Shown: piece after piece, positions 11,490-21,200 of the stretch
Layout of the letters: every line of letters starts with the position of its first letter
How positions within the stretch are numbered: position 1 is the first letter of the stretch
From: Flagellimonas zhangzhouensis
GTDB lineage: Bacteria > Bacteroidota > Bacteroidia > Flavobacteriales > Flavobacteriaceae
DNA: 64,000 bases
Assembly (NCBI RefSeq): GCF_900102925.1
Contig: NZ_FNKI01000001.1
Span: 1,240,001 to 1,304,000, forward strand
Direction: 5' to 3'
Notes under the pieces: generated by a model
Databases searched by the model: none
What the model was told of the DNA's origin: nothing
The model's input: only the letters and a program-made list of their open reading frames with translations
Program-made: the position numbers and the translations under genes

Positions 11490-11497
11490 CTAAACTA
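11490..11497 (-). promoter_or_regulatory. -7-like box of lipoprotein promoter
   Basis: Read on the minus strand this is TAGTTTAG, one mismatch from TAnnTTTG. It starts 33 nt downstream of the proximal TTCACC element, the same distance as at 14704-14711. No TTG is present at the -33 position, as expected if an activator replaces it. Confidence 0.45.
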
Positions 11498-11530: not shown

Positions 11531-11560
11531 GGTGAAGCTGTCAATTTTGGGGGTGAATCA
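11531..11560 (-). promoter_or_regulatory. Putative LytTR operator 1 (upstream of lipoprotein)
   Basis: On the plus strand GGTGAAGCT (11531-11539) and GGTGAATCA (11552-11560) form a direct repeat with a 12-bp spacer, a 21-bp period. Six A residues border it on the gene side. The same layout occurs at 12401 and 14745. LytTR regulators are known to bind paired 9-bp direct repeats with such spacing. Confidence 0.6.
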
Positions 11561-11564
11561 ACCC

Positions 11565-12341
11565 TTAGCCCTTGTAATCCATTTTGCCCTTGAAATAATC
11601 ATAAAATCCTTTGAAGATTAGTACCAAAGGATTGTTGCTGATGAAACCCGTGGTGATTCCATAAGTGGGTTTTTCGGTTTCGGGTTGATAGGTGCCGAAC
11701 ATACGGTCCCAGATCATAAGTACACCGCCAAAATTCTTGTCGATATAATCTTCATTTGATCCATGATGTACTCGATGCGCAGAAGGTGTGGCCAAAATAC
11801 CTTCAATAAATCCTAATTTGCCGACGGCCTCGGTATGTAGAAAAAATTGATACAACAAGTTTAATCCGAAGGAAACAGCGACCAACTCAAAAGGAAGGCC
11901 TATTAAAATAAGTGGAGCAACCACAAAAGGGGTCAACAATGCACTGAGCCAATTGAGGCGGTAGGAAACGGTAAGGTTCATGAACAAACTCGAATGGTGC
12001 ACCAAATGAAATGCCCAAAGAAATTTTATTTTATGACTGTACCTATGGTACCAATAGTACATAAAATCTACTGCGATAAAACTGATGAGGAATACCCACG
12101 CATTGATTTTTAATTGAAGCAAGGCAAATTGCGCCAAATAGGACATGGTGGCATATTGAAACCCAAAAAGGAACACTTTAGACATTTGAAAACCCGCAAA
12201 AATGGCCAGATTCGCTAAGGTGTCCTTTGTTTCATAGACTTTTTTATCATTTTTCCAGCTCCAGATAATCTCCAAGATTACCAAGATGAGCAAAATAAGG
12301 AAGATTGCTCCTCCATGCTCCATTCGTGTTTCGTTTTCCAT
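11565..12341 (-). CDS. Sterol desaturase / fatty acid hydroxylase family enzyme
   Basis: A 258-residue integral membrane di-iron enzyme. The family's histidine clusters are visible: YHRYSH at about 95-100, HLVHHSS at about 110, and HRVHHGS near 190, separated by hydrophobic helices. The family hydroxylates or desaturates lipids using O2; the substrate here is unknown. I place the start at the ATG at 12341. A GTG at 12350 would add three residues, but it falls inside a 20-bp palindrome that is more likely untranslated. It lies downstream of the LytTR regulator and has its own candidate operator at 12401-12430, so regulation by that system is plausible. Confidence 0.92.
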   Translation of the reverse strand: MENETRMEHGGAIFLILLILVILEIIWSWKNDKKVYETKDTLANLAIFAGFQMSKVFLFGFQYATMSYLAQFALLQLKINAWVFLISFIAVDFMYYWYHRYSHKIKFLWAFHLVHHSSLFMNLTVSYRLNWLSALLTPFVVAPLILIGLPFELVAVSFGLNLLYQFFLHTEAVGKLGFIEGILATPSAHRVHHGSNEDYIDKNFGGVLMIWDRMFGTYQPETEKPTYGITTGFISNNPLVLIFKGFYDYFKGKMDYKG

Positions 12342-12344
12342 AAT

Positions 12345-12364
12345 CTTCACTTTTTAAAGTGAAG
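12345..12364. promoter_or_regulatory. Perfect palindrome before the desaturase start
   Basis: CTTCACTTTTTAAAGTGAAG has 9-bp arms around a 2-nt centre and lies 4 bp before the chosen ATG. Each arm carries CTTCAC, which also occurs in the nearby direct-repeat sites. It could be an operator or an RNA hairpin over the start region. Confidence 0.45.
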
Positions 12365-12400
12365 TTGCCTTAAAATGGAAATTACTGAAGGGGAAAAAAA

Positions 12401-12430
12401 GGTGAAGCTGACAAAATCGGTGTTGAGACT
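12401..12430 (-). promoter_or_regulatory. Putative LytTR operator 2 (upstream of desaturase)
   Basis: GGTGAAGCT (12401-12409) and a weaker copy GTTGAGACT (12422-12430) are spaced by 12 bp. The run of A residues on the gene side is conserved. It lies between the stop codon of the response regulator and the desaturase start. The region 33 nt downstream has no good TAnnTTTG match, unlike the other two sites. Confidence 0.5.
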
Positions 12431-12441
12431 TTTCAAGAAGG

Positions 12442-13215
12442 CTATTCGTCCAGCCACTTTTTAAATTCTGGGGATTTGGCCTTACTCACTATTATTTTTT
12501 CGTGTGGTTTGGGTTCCACATTGACCACAAGTCGGCCATTAAAATAAAAGTCGATGTCCCTAACGGCCCAGCGCTGCACAATAAATTGTCGATTGGCCCT
12601 AAAAAATAGTTTGGGGGATATTTCAGCCAGAATTTTGTCCAAGGTAGACTCTATAGTGTATTTTTTTCCATCTGCGGTGTGGGCATACACAATTTCCTGT
12701 TCCGTAAAAAACCATTGGATTTTATCAACTGGAAGGGGTATGAGCTTGTTTTGGTAATGAACCAAATAGGCTTCGCGATAGGATTTGCTGGTGTTGTTTT
12801 GTATGTAGTTTAAAAGCTCGTGGATCTTATCGTTTTCCACAGTTTTGTTGCCCAATGTGGTTTTATATTTTTTAAGGGCCTTTTCTACATCTTCCGATTG
12901 AAAAGGTTTTAAAATATAATCAAGTCCGTTCACCCTAAAAGCCTCCAAGGCATAATGATCATAAGCGGTAATAAAAATTACTGGAACGCTGGGTGAAATG
13001 GATTTGAAAATTTCGATAGAAAGTCCGTCGGTAAGTCGAATATCCATGAACAAAAGCTGGCAATCCCCCATATGATTTTGCAACCAATCAATGGAACCTT
13101 TTACGCTGTCCAATTTTTGAAGCACATTGATTTCGGGTTCCAAATTTTTTAGTGTGAATTCCAAATTACGCGCAATGGCAGGTTCATCTTCAATAATGGC
13201 AATATTGATAGGCAT
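12442..13215 (-). CDS. LytTR-family response regulator
   Basis: A 257-residue two-domain regulator. The receiver domain (about 1-120) has acidic residues E9/D10, the phospho-acceptor D58 (LLFMDIRLTDG), T83 (FITAYDHYAL) and K103 (YILKPFQSED). The C-terminal LytTR DNA-binding domain (about 150-257) holds the pattern KIQWFFTEQEIVYAHTADGK and LFFRANRQFIVQ. It sits 4 bp after the sensor kinase gene and is certainly its partner. Its likely targets are the direct repeats at 11531, 12401 and 14745, the last giving possible autoregulation. Confidence 0.95.
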   Translation of the reverse strand: MPINIAIIEDEPAIARNLEFTLKNLEPEINVLQKLDSVKGSIDWLQNHMGDCQLLFMDIRLTDGLSIEIFKSISPSVPVIFITAYDHYALEAFRVNGLDYILKPFQSEDVEKALKKYKTTLGNKTVENDKIHELLNYIQNNTSKSYREAYLVHYQNKLIPLPVDKIQWFFTEQEIVYAHTADGKKYTIESTLDKILAEISPKLFFRANRQFIVQRWAVRDIDFYFNGRLVVNVEPKPHEKIIVSKAKSPEFKKWLDE

Positions 13216-13219
13216 AGGG

Positions 13220-14245
13220 TTATGGATTTAAGGGCAATTGTACGGTAAAATGTGTGTCGGATTTTACGATATCTATGGATTTCCCCATCAAAATTTGGTA
13301 ACGCTCGTTGAGGTTTAAAAGTCCAATTCCTGTTGAAGGTTCCTTATAAATGGCTTCTTTGAGGGTATTTTTGAAAATGAGTTTATCATTTTCTTGAAAA
13401 ACATCGATGCGCAGCGGATATTCTTTAGAGACATAATTATGTTTTACCGCATTTTCCAAAAGCGGTTGTAGTGACATATGGGGTAGGTTTATGCCATGGG
13501 TTTTGGGAACATGGATATGGATGTCCAAGGCATCCTCAAAACGCATTTTCAGCAATTGTATATTGGAATCCAACAGTTCCAATTCTTTATCCAGACCAAT
13601 AAGTTGTTCGTGATGGTTGCCCAAGGAATAGCGAAACACCTTTGATAAGTGCGTAATGTAATCTTGTGCTTTGTTTGGATTTTCCCTGACCAAGGCAGAC
13701 AGGCTGCTCAATGCGTTGAACAAAAAATGGGGGTTTATCTGTGCCTTTAAATTTTTTATTTCGGCATCAAAATAAGCTGATTTCAATTGTTCGTTTTCGA
13801 GTTCCTTTCGTTTTTGAACCCGATTCAGCAAAACAATTTTGAGCATAATGGAAAGCAGTACCAAGCTGGTAATCAAGCGAAACATGTAGCCCAGTATAAA
13901 CAGTTTAAGGTTCGGAGCATTTTGAAACAAATATTTTTGGCTAATGCTTCCAATCGCCAGAAACAAAACCAAAAACAGTAAATTAAACAGCAGGTTCTTG
14001 GTGATTTCTTTCTTGTTTGTATTTTCCCATCGAAGCCACTTTAAGTTTAAGAAACCAATAAAAATACAATAGCCAAATTGGAAAAGTGTCTGATAGGCGA
14101 GCTCTGGTGCATTGAAGACCCAAGGTAACCCTATTCGTCTAGCCTCTCCGGGCAGCATCACGAACAAGCGATGAACGTTTAATGCGATGGCCAAAAATAC
14201 TGAGGCGAGGAGCAGTATTCTTTTTTCCGATTTGGTCATTTTCAT
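13220..14245 (-). CDS. LytS/YehU-type sensor histidine kinase
   Basis: A 341-residue kinase with four N-terminal transmembrane helices (about 10-27, 50-68, 86-104, 117-141) and no recognisable extracytoplasmic sensor domain. A short coiled linker leads to the His_kinase domain, with H173 in AQINPHFLFNALSSL. The ATPase N-box (SLQPLLENAVKHNY) and G-box (GIGLLNLNERYQ) follow. The signal may be sensed in the membrane or through the small exported protein encoded just upstream. It is co-transcribed with the LytTR regulator. Confidence 0.95.
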   Translation of the reverse strand: MKMTKSEKRILLLASVFLAIALNVHRLFVMLPGEARRIGLPWVFNAPELAYQTLFQFGYCIFIGFLNLKWLRWENTNKKEITKNLLFNLLFLVLFLAIGSISQKYLFQNAPNLKLFILGYMFRLITSLVLLSIMLKIVLLNRVQKRKELENEQLKSAYFDAEIKNLKAQINPHFLFNALSSLSALVRENPNKAQDYITHLSKVFRYSLGNHHEQLIGLDKELELLDSNIQLLKMRFEDALDIHIHVPKTHGINLPHMSLQPLLENAVKHNYVSKEYPLRIDVFQENDKLIFKNTLKEAIYKEPSTGIGLLNLNERYQILMGKSIDIVKSDTHFTVQLPLNP

Positions 14246-14261
14246 TGTTTAAAAATACAAA

Positions 14262-14297
14262 GGCTTCCCCAATCCACAACATTGGACAGGGAAAGCC
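14262..14297 (-). terminator. Imperfect terminator/attenuator between small ORF and kinase
   Basis: On the minus strand GGCTTTCCC...CCAAT pairs with ATTGG...GGAAGCC with one bulge, followed by TTTGTATTTTT. It lies between the stop codon of the 118-residue gene and the kinase start. It should reduce read-through into the kinase and regulator genes. Confidence 0.6.
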
Positions 14298-14324
14298 ATG
14301 ATCACTGTGTGAAAAAGTTATTTG

Positions 14325-14681
14325 TTATGAATTCTTTCGTTGCTTGTAACGCTCTTTGAGCTTACTTCTATTTTCCTTTTGCATCTCTTTGAACGATTCA
14401 AATTCACTCTCGCTCAAAAGTTGTTTCAATTCTTCATTTTTATTGTCCTGAATAGTTTTTAATGCTTTCATTTTGGTTAATCGTGACCCCTCACTTTCCC
14501 TTGTACTCTTAAATTGTTCAAAGTACTTATTGCTGATTTCAACAAAGGCTTCTTTCTTTTCCCCTGTTAATTGTAAAGTTTCGATTTGATGATCTAGAAC
14601 TGCTGCAAATTCCTCATCACTCTCTTGCGAGAAACCTAGAATAGACACACAAAACATTAAGGCAAACATTAATTTTTTCAT
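14325..14681 (-). CDS. Small exported helical protein, Spy/CpxP-like in appearance
   Basis: A 118-residue protein with a clear signal peptide (about 1-19, ending GFSQ). The mature part is highly charged and almost all helix. It contains LQLTGEKKEAFVEI, an ES(E) region and a Lys/Arg-rich C-terminus. Spacing and composition resemble periplasmic Spy/CpxP (LTxxQ) proteins, but I cannot confirm membership. Its position just before a sensor kinase recalls CpxP next to the Cpx system, so it may modulate the kinase. A three-copy direct-repeat site lies 64 bp upstream. Confidence 0.7.
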   Translation of the reverse strand: MKKLMFALMFCVSILGFSQESDEEFAAVLDHQIETLQLTGEKKEAFVEISNKYFEQFKSTRESEGSRLTKMKALKTIQDNKNEELKQLLSESEFESFKEMQKENRSKLKERYKQRKNS

Positions 14682-14703
14682 GGTAGTTTATTTAAATTTT
14701 AAG

Positions 14704-14711
14704 CAAGTTTA
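14704..14711 (-). promoter_or_regulatory. -7-like box of the small exported protein promoter
   Basis: Minus-strand TAAACTTG has one mismatch to TAnnTTTG. It begins 33 nt downstream of the proximal TTCACC of the direct-repeat site, exactly as for the lipoprotein promoter. Confidence 0.45.
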
Positions 14712-14744
14712 GGTTGATCCTTGAGGCGCTATGGAAGTAAAAAA

Positions 14745-14795
14745 GGTGAAACTGCTAAAATTGGAGGTAGGACAATGGATTTTAGGGGTGAAGCA
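14745..14795 (-). promoter_or_regulatory. Putative LytTR operator 3 (three repeats)
   Basis: Plus-strand 9-mers GGTGAAACT (14745-14753), GGTAGGACA (14766-14774) and GGTGAAGCA (14787-14795) follow each other at an exact 21-bp period. They sit between the divergent small exported protein gene and the thioredoxin-like gene. The A-tract on the 14744 side is shared with the other two sites. Confidence 0.6.
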
Positions 14796-20096: not shown

Positions 20097-21200
20097 TTAA
20101 CTTTTGATTTTCGGCACATAAAGAGCAATATCTGCCGCTCTGCCTTCAATATCCATGGTGCCCAATGAAGTAAATGAAATGTCCTTTGTTTTGGTCAATT
20201 GGTTGACCAAATCATCTGAAACAATCAGTTCTTCATCAAATTTTTTACAGAGCTTTTGAATGCGGGCGGTAACGTTCAACACATCGCCTGTAAAAAATAT
20301 TTCTTTTTTTAAAGCACCAATTTCACCAGTGGTTACTTCACCTAAATGCAAACCAGCTCTAAATGCAGGTTGTACTCCGTAGGTTTTTTCAAAGTAAGAA
20401 GCCTTTTTTGTCAAGCTTTGCTTCATGGCATAAAAACAGCGGATGCAGTTTGCATGGTTTAGACCATCCTCCTTTTTCCAAGTGATTACAATTTCATCCC
20501 CAACATATTGGTACACCTCTCCTTCATATTGAATAATGGCATTTGACAATTGATTGTAATAGTCACTCAAAAACCGAAAATAAACAGTGTGACCCAATTG
20601 CTCTGCAAGTGAAGTGGAGGATTGCATATCCAAAAACATAAAAACCCTCGACTCATTTTTAGGTTGATGGTATTTGCCCGAAAAGAAATTTAGGAGCACA
20701 TTGTGTCCCAAATGTTCGCTAAAACCTGAATACAATAACGAAACAAAAATGCTAAAGGCTAACGAAACCATGGTGCTCAAAAAGGTAAGGCTCACAATAT
20801 AATGGGAGAACTTTTCCCAAACACCTTCGCTTAAAACGGAATCGCCTAATTCAATACTTGCGGCAATGGGATAGGTGATAAGGTTGATCACCAGCATGAA
20901 CAACAAGTAAAATCCCATTTTGTAAAGGATCTTAATGCTGAAGCTTTTCGATTTAAACCGCTTTCCCAACCAAAGTACCTCCACGGCTCCCATAGTGATA
21001 CCCACAAGAAATACAGCAGTAGAGGCGAATATTAAAACAGTCCAAGTAACAGTAATATCCGTATCGGGCCTATGGTTTTCGTATTCATTGGCCATGGATT
21101 CAATTAAGAGTATAAACCAACTCAATGCCAACCAAATAACCCCAAAGGGTAAAATCCGTTTTATATAGTATTTGGTCTTGGGGTTTTTAAACAGACGCAT
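20097..21200 (-). CDS. Membrane adenylate/guanylate cyclase (class III)
   Basis: A 367-residue protein with about four N-terminal transmembrane helices and a class III nucleotide cyclase domain from about residue 170. The first metal Asp lies in FMFLDMQSSTSLAE and the second in YQYVGDEIVITW. The transition-state Asn/Arg pattern is in GDVLNVTARIQKL. The base-selecting positions cannot be assigned with confidence, so cAMP or cGMP is open. I use the ATG at 21200 (MRLFKNPKTKYY). An ATG at 21257 would add 19 hydrophobic residues. Confidence 0.88.
   Translation of the reverse strand: MRLFKNPKTKYYIKRILPFGVIWLALSWFILLIESMANEYENHRPDTDITVTWTVLIFASTAVFLVGITMGAVEVLWLGKRFKSKSFSIKILYKMGFYLLFMLVINLITYPIAASIELGDSVLSEGVWEKFSHYIVSLTFLSTMVSLAFSIFVSLLYSGFSEHLGHNVLLNFFSGKYHQPKNESRVFMFLDMQSSTSLAEQLGHTVYFRFLSDYYNQLSNAIIQYEGEVYQYVGDEIVITWKKEDGLNHANCIRCFYAMKQSLTKKASYFEKTYGVQPAFRAGLHLGEVTTGEIGALKKEIFFTGDVLNVTARIQKLCKKFDEELIVSDDLVNQLTKTKDISFTSLGTMDIEGRAADIALYVPKIKS

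Follow-up and report, generated by a model that had tools for sequence, protein, structure and literature searches.

A locus in which tandem 9-bp direct repeats stand before three promoters, around the genes of a two-component system with a LytTR regulator, raises the question of whether these repeats are operators and, if so, for which regulator and with what effect. Flavobacteriaceae genomes encode many LytTR regulators, and a literature search returned neither a LytTR recognition site reported in this family nor a LytTR paper on Muricauda. The window (the whole 64,000-nt stretch of DNA that was analysed, taken from a genome of 3.74 Mb) had been interpreted in an earlier, sequence-only reading, which proposed that the repeats are activator sites of the regulator encoded at 12442-13215 and that they make up a local envelope or lipid regulon with autoregulation. 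In the present analysis the sites, their geometry, their conservation, their specificity to the locus and their co-occurrence with the regulator were obtained by computation. On this comparative basis, the repeats are probably activator operators of that LytTR regulator, with an autoregulated local regulon (a probability of roughly 0.86). A defined operator with a fixed promoter geometry and a small closed regulon, recurring in many genera, allows direct tests of binding, of activation at promoters that lack a -33 element and of the nature of the signal.

The repeats, the boxes and the genes they precede

The features of the locus are collected in Table 1; the minus-strand order is small exported protein, histidine kinase, LytTR response regulator, desaturase-superfamily enzyme and lipoprotein. 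Operator 3 lies 5' of the first operon, operator 2 between the stop codon of the regulator and the desaturase, and operator 1 between the desaturase and the lipoprotein. The seven plus-strand 9-mers were found where they had been placed before, with an exact 21-bp period. In gene sense the half-site is approximately WGNTTCACC, with TTCACC as its strong core, and the middle repeat of operator 3 (14766) is weak in the window genome.

The -7-like boxes at sites 1 and 3 begin 33 nt past the repeats, as originally described, and a box at the identical 33 nt, omitted from that description, was found at site 2. All three are near-matches to the TAnnTTTG-type -7 box of the Bacteroidota sigma-A promoter (consensus from PMC9723704). 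The reported lack of a TTG at -33 also extends to relatives: none of 32 orthologous promoters has a TTG at a spacing of 17-23, where chance would supply one in about 19% of cases per promoter. An A-tract (T6 in gene sense) had been ascribed to all sites; it is kept at the lipoprotein promoter (10 of 12 species) and not at the desaturase (1 of 11) or small-protein (2 of 9) promoter.

The classical LytTR consensus is [TA][AC][CA]GTTN[AG][TG], which the window-type repeats do not match, as their core is TTCACC/T with no fixed GTT. The LytTR family as a whole has no common consensus, and its sites are generally repeats of 9-11 bp with spacers of 11-13 bp (PMC4847170). At all window sites and in the relatives, the repeats are 9 bp long with a 12-bp spacer; they stand just upstream of their putative target promoters, at a constant 33 nt in the three cases, and are linked to a regulator that carries a LytTR DNA-binding domain (PF04397).

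Table 1. Positions of the operators, boxes and genes in the window, and of candidate RNAs and peptides in other genomes (locus identifiers precede their own coordinates)
Feature	Position	Strand	Remarks
Operator 1 (lipoprotein promoter)	11531..11560	-	TGATTCACC-N12-AGCTTCACC in gene sense, two 9-mers 21 bp apart
Operator 2 (desaturase promoter)	12401..12430	-	AGTCTCAAC-N12-AGCTTCACC in gene sense
Operator 3 (putative autoregulatory promoter)	14745..14795	-	TGCTTCACC-N12-TGTCCTACC-N12-AGTTTCACC in gene sense, 21-bp period
-7-like box of operator 1	11490..11497	-	TAGTTTAG, 33 nt after operator
-7-like box of operator 2	12360..12367	-	CAACTTCA, 33 nt after operator
-7-like box of operator 3	14704..14711	-	TAAACTTG, 33 nt after operator
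Small exported helical protein, 118 aa	14325..14681	-	First gene of operon
Sensor histidine kinase	13220..14245	-	PF06580, PHFLFN at residue 172
LytTR response regulator	12442..13215	-	Response_reg PF00072 1.7e-13, LytTR PF04397 5.5e-19
Membrane fatty acid hydroxylase / sterol desaturase superfamily enzyme	11565..12341	-	PF04116
Lipoprotein, 257 aa	10668..11441	-	Lipobox Cys31
Multicopy ~140-nt candidate small RNAs after LytTR operator and box	L264 (G017:C7), L265 (G145:C5), L310/L317/L319/L321 (G221)
40-45 aa peptide genes directly 3' of operator	L126:7166-7303, L215:5261-5398, L214:4499-4636, L216:4701-4838
40-45 aa peptide genes directly 3' of operator, further cases	L268:2551-2673, L314 near 1570		L314: minus strand

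The kinase has hydrophobic helices and no large extracytoplasmic domain, and the phosphoacceptor of the regulator is Asp58. For the desaturase, whose start was assumed to be the ATG at 12341, the nearest NCBIfam model is the OlsE ornithine-lipid hydroxylase; this match scores far below its cutoff, and a membrane-lipid or envelope response is therefore plausible rather than established. The lipoprotein matched no Pfam family; it has two more invariant Cys residues and a predicted antiparallel beta structure. For the small exported protein, a resemblance to Spy/CpxP (LTXXQ) is putative. The protein did not itself match the LTXXQ profile PF07813, and its homologues in L125 (0.0022) and L124 (0.039) gave sub-threshold matches. 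A Foldseek comparison with the PDB found nothing significant for this protein or for the lipoprotein; the best match of the small protein on a second look was 5io8 (Z 6.8), which is possibly meaningless for a helical protein.

Specificity and conservation of the sites

Within the window, the pattern GGTGAANCN13GGTGAANCW with up to three mismatches occurs 11 times against 3.1 expected, and none of 100 shuffles reached 11. Genome-wide, a loose consensus with two mismatches gave 36 matches and its reversed counterpart 40, i.e., no enrichment. Because the loose consensus alone is not enriched over the reversed control, specificity must come from operator and box together. Position matrices that included the box were each derived from a single promoter type of other species, and every window position was ranked. 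With the lipoprotein-trained matrix, the lipoprotein, desaturase and small-protein sites ranked first, second and third of 127,858 window positions, and the same three combinations of operator and box came out on top with the desaturase-trained and the small-protein-trained matrices. A further matrix match at 20784-20813, inside an adenylate-cyclase-like gene, was dismissed as chance.

In the whole 3.74-Mb genome, model R1 returned three strong sites, with E values of 3.1e-13, 2.7e-12 and 9.0e-9, and the next best match was at 0.06. This bears out the proposal of a local regulon, with the qualification that the training set of R1 included promoters later found by R1, so that the matrix cross-validation is the unbiased test.

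Orthologues of the regulator (74-91% identity) were found in 10 of 72 other genomes of the genus, which carry the names Muricauda, Allomuricauda or Flagellimonas. The lipoprotein (at least 62% identity) is confined to those 11 genomes of the genus that carry the regulator orthologue, and the gene order is maintained among them. In an ungapped alignment of the promoters by half-site, the period of 21 bp and the gap of 33 nt held at the three promoter types in nearly every species. R1 recovered all three sites in each of nine other regulator-bearing genomes and no strong site in four genus genomes without a regulator orthologue (best E 0.01-0.1). Part of this co-occurrence reflects shared inheritance, since the regulator and two of the targets are linked. 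The box of operator 1 is unchanged in 11 of 12 species and reads TACTTTAG in Lutibacter sp. B1, where the operator sites are also kept; the box of operator 2 appears in relatives as CAACTTCG, CAACTTAG or CAGTTTTG. Conservation upstream of orthologues, on which the sequence-only reading had staked itself in advance, was thus seen at three promoters, in nine other genomes, in Lutibacter sp. B1 and in the more distant G077 (see below).

Additional copies of the targets were also observed. An unlinked lipoprotein paralogue, 62% identical (L147, G220:C43:125053-125781), bears an operator with a TAGTTTAG box, and a second desaturase-lipoprotein copy with operators lies in a fragmented metagenome-assembled genome (L146/L159, G206:C36) and may be contamination. 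In six or more regulator-bearing relatives, a gene for an M43 metalloprotease lipoprotein is found between regulator and desaturase. The inserted reading frame (L080:5775-6713, and at the same place in L081, L083, L084, L085 and L087) is convergent with the regulator and divergent from the desaturase, and it encodes the M43 protein where tested (L080, L085, L087). Operator-like pairs precede this gene; in L083 the distance downstream from the repeats to a TATTTTTG box is about 55 nt instead of 33 nt. The divergent metalloprotease lipoprotein of the six relatives appears to be a target as well.

The same operator in other genera

The geometry was also examined at 29 loci with regulators 36-46% identical to that of the window. 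A fixed core was run over the sequence upstream of the kinase with half-site spacings of 14-29 and gaps of 15-50, which gives 576 combinations. The combination of spacing 21 and gap 33 was the unique maximum (z = 8): 15 loci scored at least 14 of 16, where the mean was 0.26. In 18 of 21 cases there is a third half-site at exactly -21, and none was found at neighbouring offsets. The same arrangement, usually with three copies and with TACATTTG-type boxes, precedes LytTR operons in many genera of Flavobacteriaceae.

A second model, R2, was built from 17 of these wider-clade promoters, all outside the genus of the window. It recovered window sites 3 and 1, and it found strong sites in genera absent from its training (e.g., G032, G037, G127 and G140). 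In G077, whose regulator is 43% identical, operators precede the operon, the desaturase (47% identical) and a homologue of the window lipoprotein (hhalign probability 99.4%, E 2.4e-21), so that the same three-promoter regulon is kept in a distant genus. No operator was recognised at L089, a metagenome-derived locus with a regulator 51% identical.

These observations bear on the possibility that the repeats are real LytTR sites bound by a different LytTR regulator encoded elsewhere, alone or as cross-talk. The genome yields 15 matches to the window regulator, and with so many LytTR-type relatives the cognate pairing has to rest on linkage, co-occurrence and specificity. Strong sites are nevertheless limited to this locus in the window genome and to genus members with the orthologue, and across genera the operator travels with the window-type regulator operon, which makes another regulator improbable.

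The operator also serves as a search handle, as it pinpointed, in other Flavobacteriaceae, a candidate RNA family unmatched in Rfam as well as small peptides that are conserved. In G017 and G145, strong R2 operators occur without a sizeable reading frame downstream; they are followed instead by sequences of ~140 nt that start at, or a few bases from, the end of the operator model, have AATAGTAAGTTTTTCATATGGTTAGTTTGGTTAGTTTG as a near-invariant core and finish with an intrinsic terminator. A covariance model made from these copies found about seven of them in each of the G017 and G145 genomes; in the window genome it found none. G221 is a second species of the genus of G017 and was outside the training; there, six of six operator-adjacent stretches are copies of the candidate RNA, and they start at the base right after the operator. 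Rfam gave no match for the G017 and G145 loci, nor for L266 and L133. Outside the two genera, the RNA model (R3) gave weak matches (E 1e-7 to 0.01) that were set aside as terminator-like background, one of them (G109) beside an operator. The core was also considered as a micropeptide (MVSLVSLKTAQ); this is disfavoured by the loss of the ATG in 2 of 10 copies, the varying frame end and the equal conservation of the nucleotides preceding the ATG. At L266 (G109:C13, 1060-2070), four LytTR operators lie 275-370 bp apart, at least three of them followed by short non-coding stretches with terminator-like hairpins, apparently of a different RNA family.

In the genera of G017 and G145, the kinase operon starts with a peptide of ~45 aa with the conserved C-terminus EVYTLNDYNEESILFI (C-terminal peptide sequence ESREVYTLNDYNEESILFI). 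Peptides of 40-45 aa with a conserved C-terminus (e.g., EVYTLNDYNEESILFI, INRDTNDIHMFI) lie directly behind other operators (Table 1) and are candidate signal or effector peptides. Further products were noted behind LytTR operators: 62-aa peptides in three genera (L270:5373-5561, L269:5062-5250, L275:1062-1250), with similar alanine-rich C-termini (EEYGTAAGVAMRH, EIYGAAAAAAIRN); DUF6515 proteins, a recurrent find (L125:7108-7698, L274:2723-3277, L268:917-1558); and, as the first gene of LytTR operons in other genera, acidic exported proteins (L128, L129, L273, L276, L130), several with FDTxxYLPEDFNAY-like repeats. Tentatively, and at somewhat less than even odds, the window system may be a branch of a LytTR autoinduction family that extends across the Flavobacteriaceae and recognises three tandem repeats spaced by 21 bp. 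Other branches would have multicopy, terminator-ended regulatory RNAs as direct outputs (Qrr- or RNAIII-like logic) and the ~45-aa peptide as a possible signal; in the window branch, the place of these outputs would have been taken by a lipid-modifying enzyme and a lipoprotein, joined in relatives by a metalloprotease.

Proposed mechanism and comparison with known systems

In the proposed mechanism, the membrane histidine kinase would phosphorylate the LytTR regulator, of which two (or three) LytTR domains would occupy successive 9-bp half-sites, separated by two helical turns and facing the same side of the DNA. The -7 box of F. psychrophilum extends from -12 to -5 (PMC9723704). Counted from this box, the half-sites fall at -54 to -46 and -75 to -67 and the third one at -96 to -88, on a single face of the helix. 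The operator covers about -75 to -46 of promoters without a -33 TTG, as would be expected of an activator; such a layout would suit an activator that contacts the polymerase at a promoter lacking its own -33 element. The bound regulator would thus recruit RNA polymerase to promoters with a TAnnTTTG-type -7 box 33 nt downstream. The putative targets are the membrane lipid hydroxylase/desaturase, the surface lipoprotein and the regulator's own operon with the small exported protein and the kinase. As this operon carries the operator, autoregulation is expected, as first proposed, and would take the form of positive feedback. The activator claim likewise gains comparative support from the upstream position, the missing -33 TTG and the conservation with the regulator. 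The label "envelope or lipid" derives from gene content, and the signal is most likely the state of the envelope or of the membrane lipids.

The regulator could instead bind and repress, so that its removal would raise expression. The sign of regulation is beyond the reach of computation, and no computed result favours repression. The operator leaves the core promoter free and occupies positions farther upstream (about -46 and beyond), the -33 TTG is lacking in 32 of 32 promoters, the invariant 33-nt gap suggests polymerase contact, and LytTR systems of such a layout are activators (PMC6193735); repression is accordingly very improbable. That the repeats are chance or a structural A/T-tract feature without any regulator, for which the absence of genome-wide enrichment of the loose consensus might speak, is contradicted by the cross-validation, the phylogenetic footprint, the spacing grid and the recovery in untrained genera, and is hardly credible.

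The preferred reading, an autoregulated LytTR activator, has several known counterparts. Quorum-sensing systems of the AgrCA and ComDE class also combine a LytTR regulator, paired 9-bp repeats and positive feedback, and agr also drives a regulatory RNA. They differ in that the window kinase is of the PF06580 family and its operon has no peptide gene; no peptide processing gene was recognised with the window system. The Cpx/Spy envelope stress response likewise has a small exported helical protein whose gene is co-transcribed with those of the system, but its regulator is of the OmpR type rather than LytTR, and the LTXXQ resemblance of the window protein is only putative. YpdA/YpdB of E. coli (PMC4847170) shares a LytS-like kinase, a LytTR response regulator and a tandem direct-repeat operator, whereas its operator sequence is different (GGCATTTCAT), its promoter is proteobacterial and its target is unrelated.

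LytTR systems are known to autoactivate via 9-bp repeats that are separated by 12-bp spacers and stand some 10 bp before the promoter (PMC6193735). HdrRM/BrsRM of Streptococcus mutans and the LRS-like operons of Bacteroides have, like the window, direct repeats ~21-22 bp apart close before the promoter and, as proposed for the window, autoregulation of the regulator operon (PMC6193735); the repeats are 9 bp long in the former, as in the window, and 11 bp in the latter. Both pair a LytTR protein with a membrane inhibitor, in contrast to the kinase and response regulator of the window, and the window type is further set apart by its TTCACC/T consensus, by the usual three repeats at the operon promoter and by the lack of a -33 element. 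In the Bacteroides operons, the repeats stand 34 nt (11 + 4 + 19) before TATCTTTG (PMC6193735), a distance nearly equal to the 33 nt of the window.
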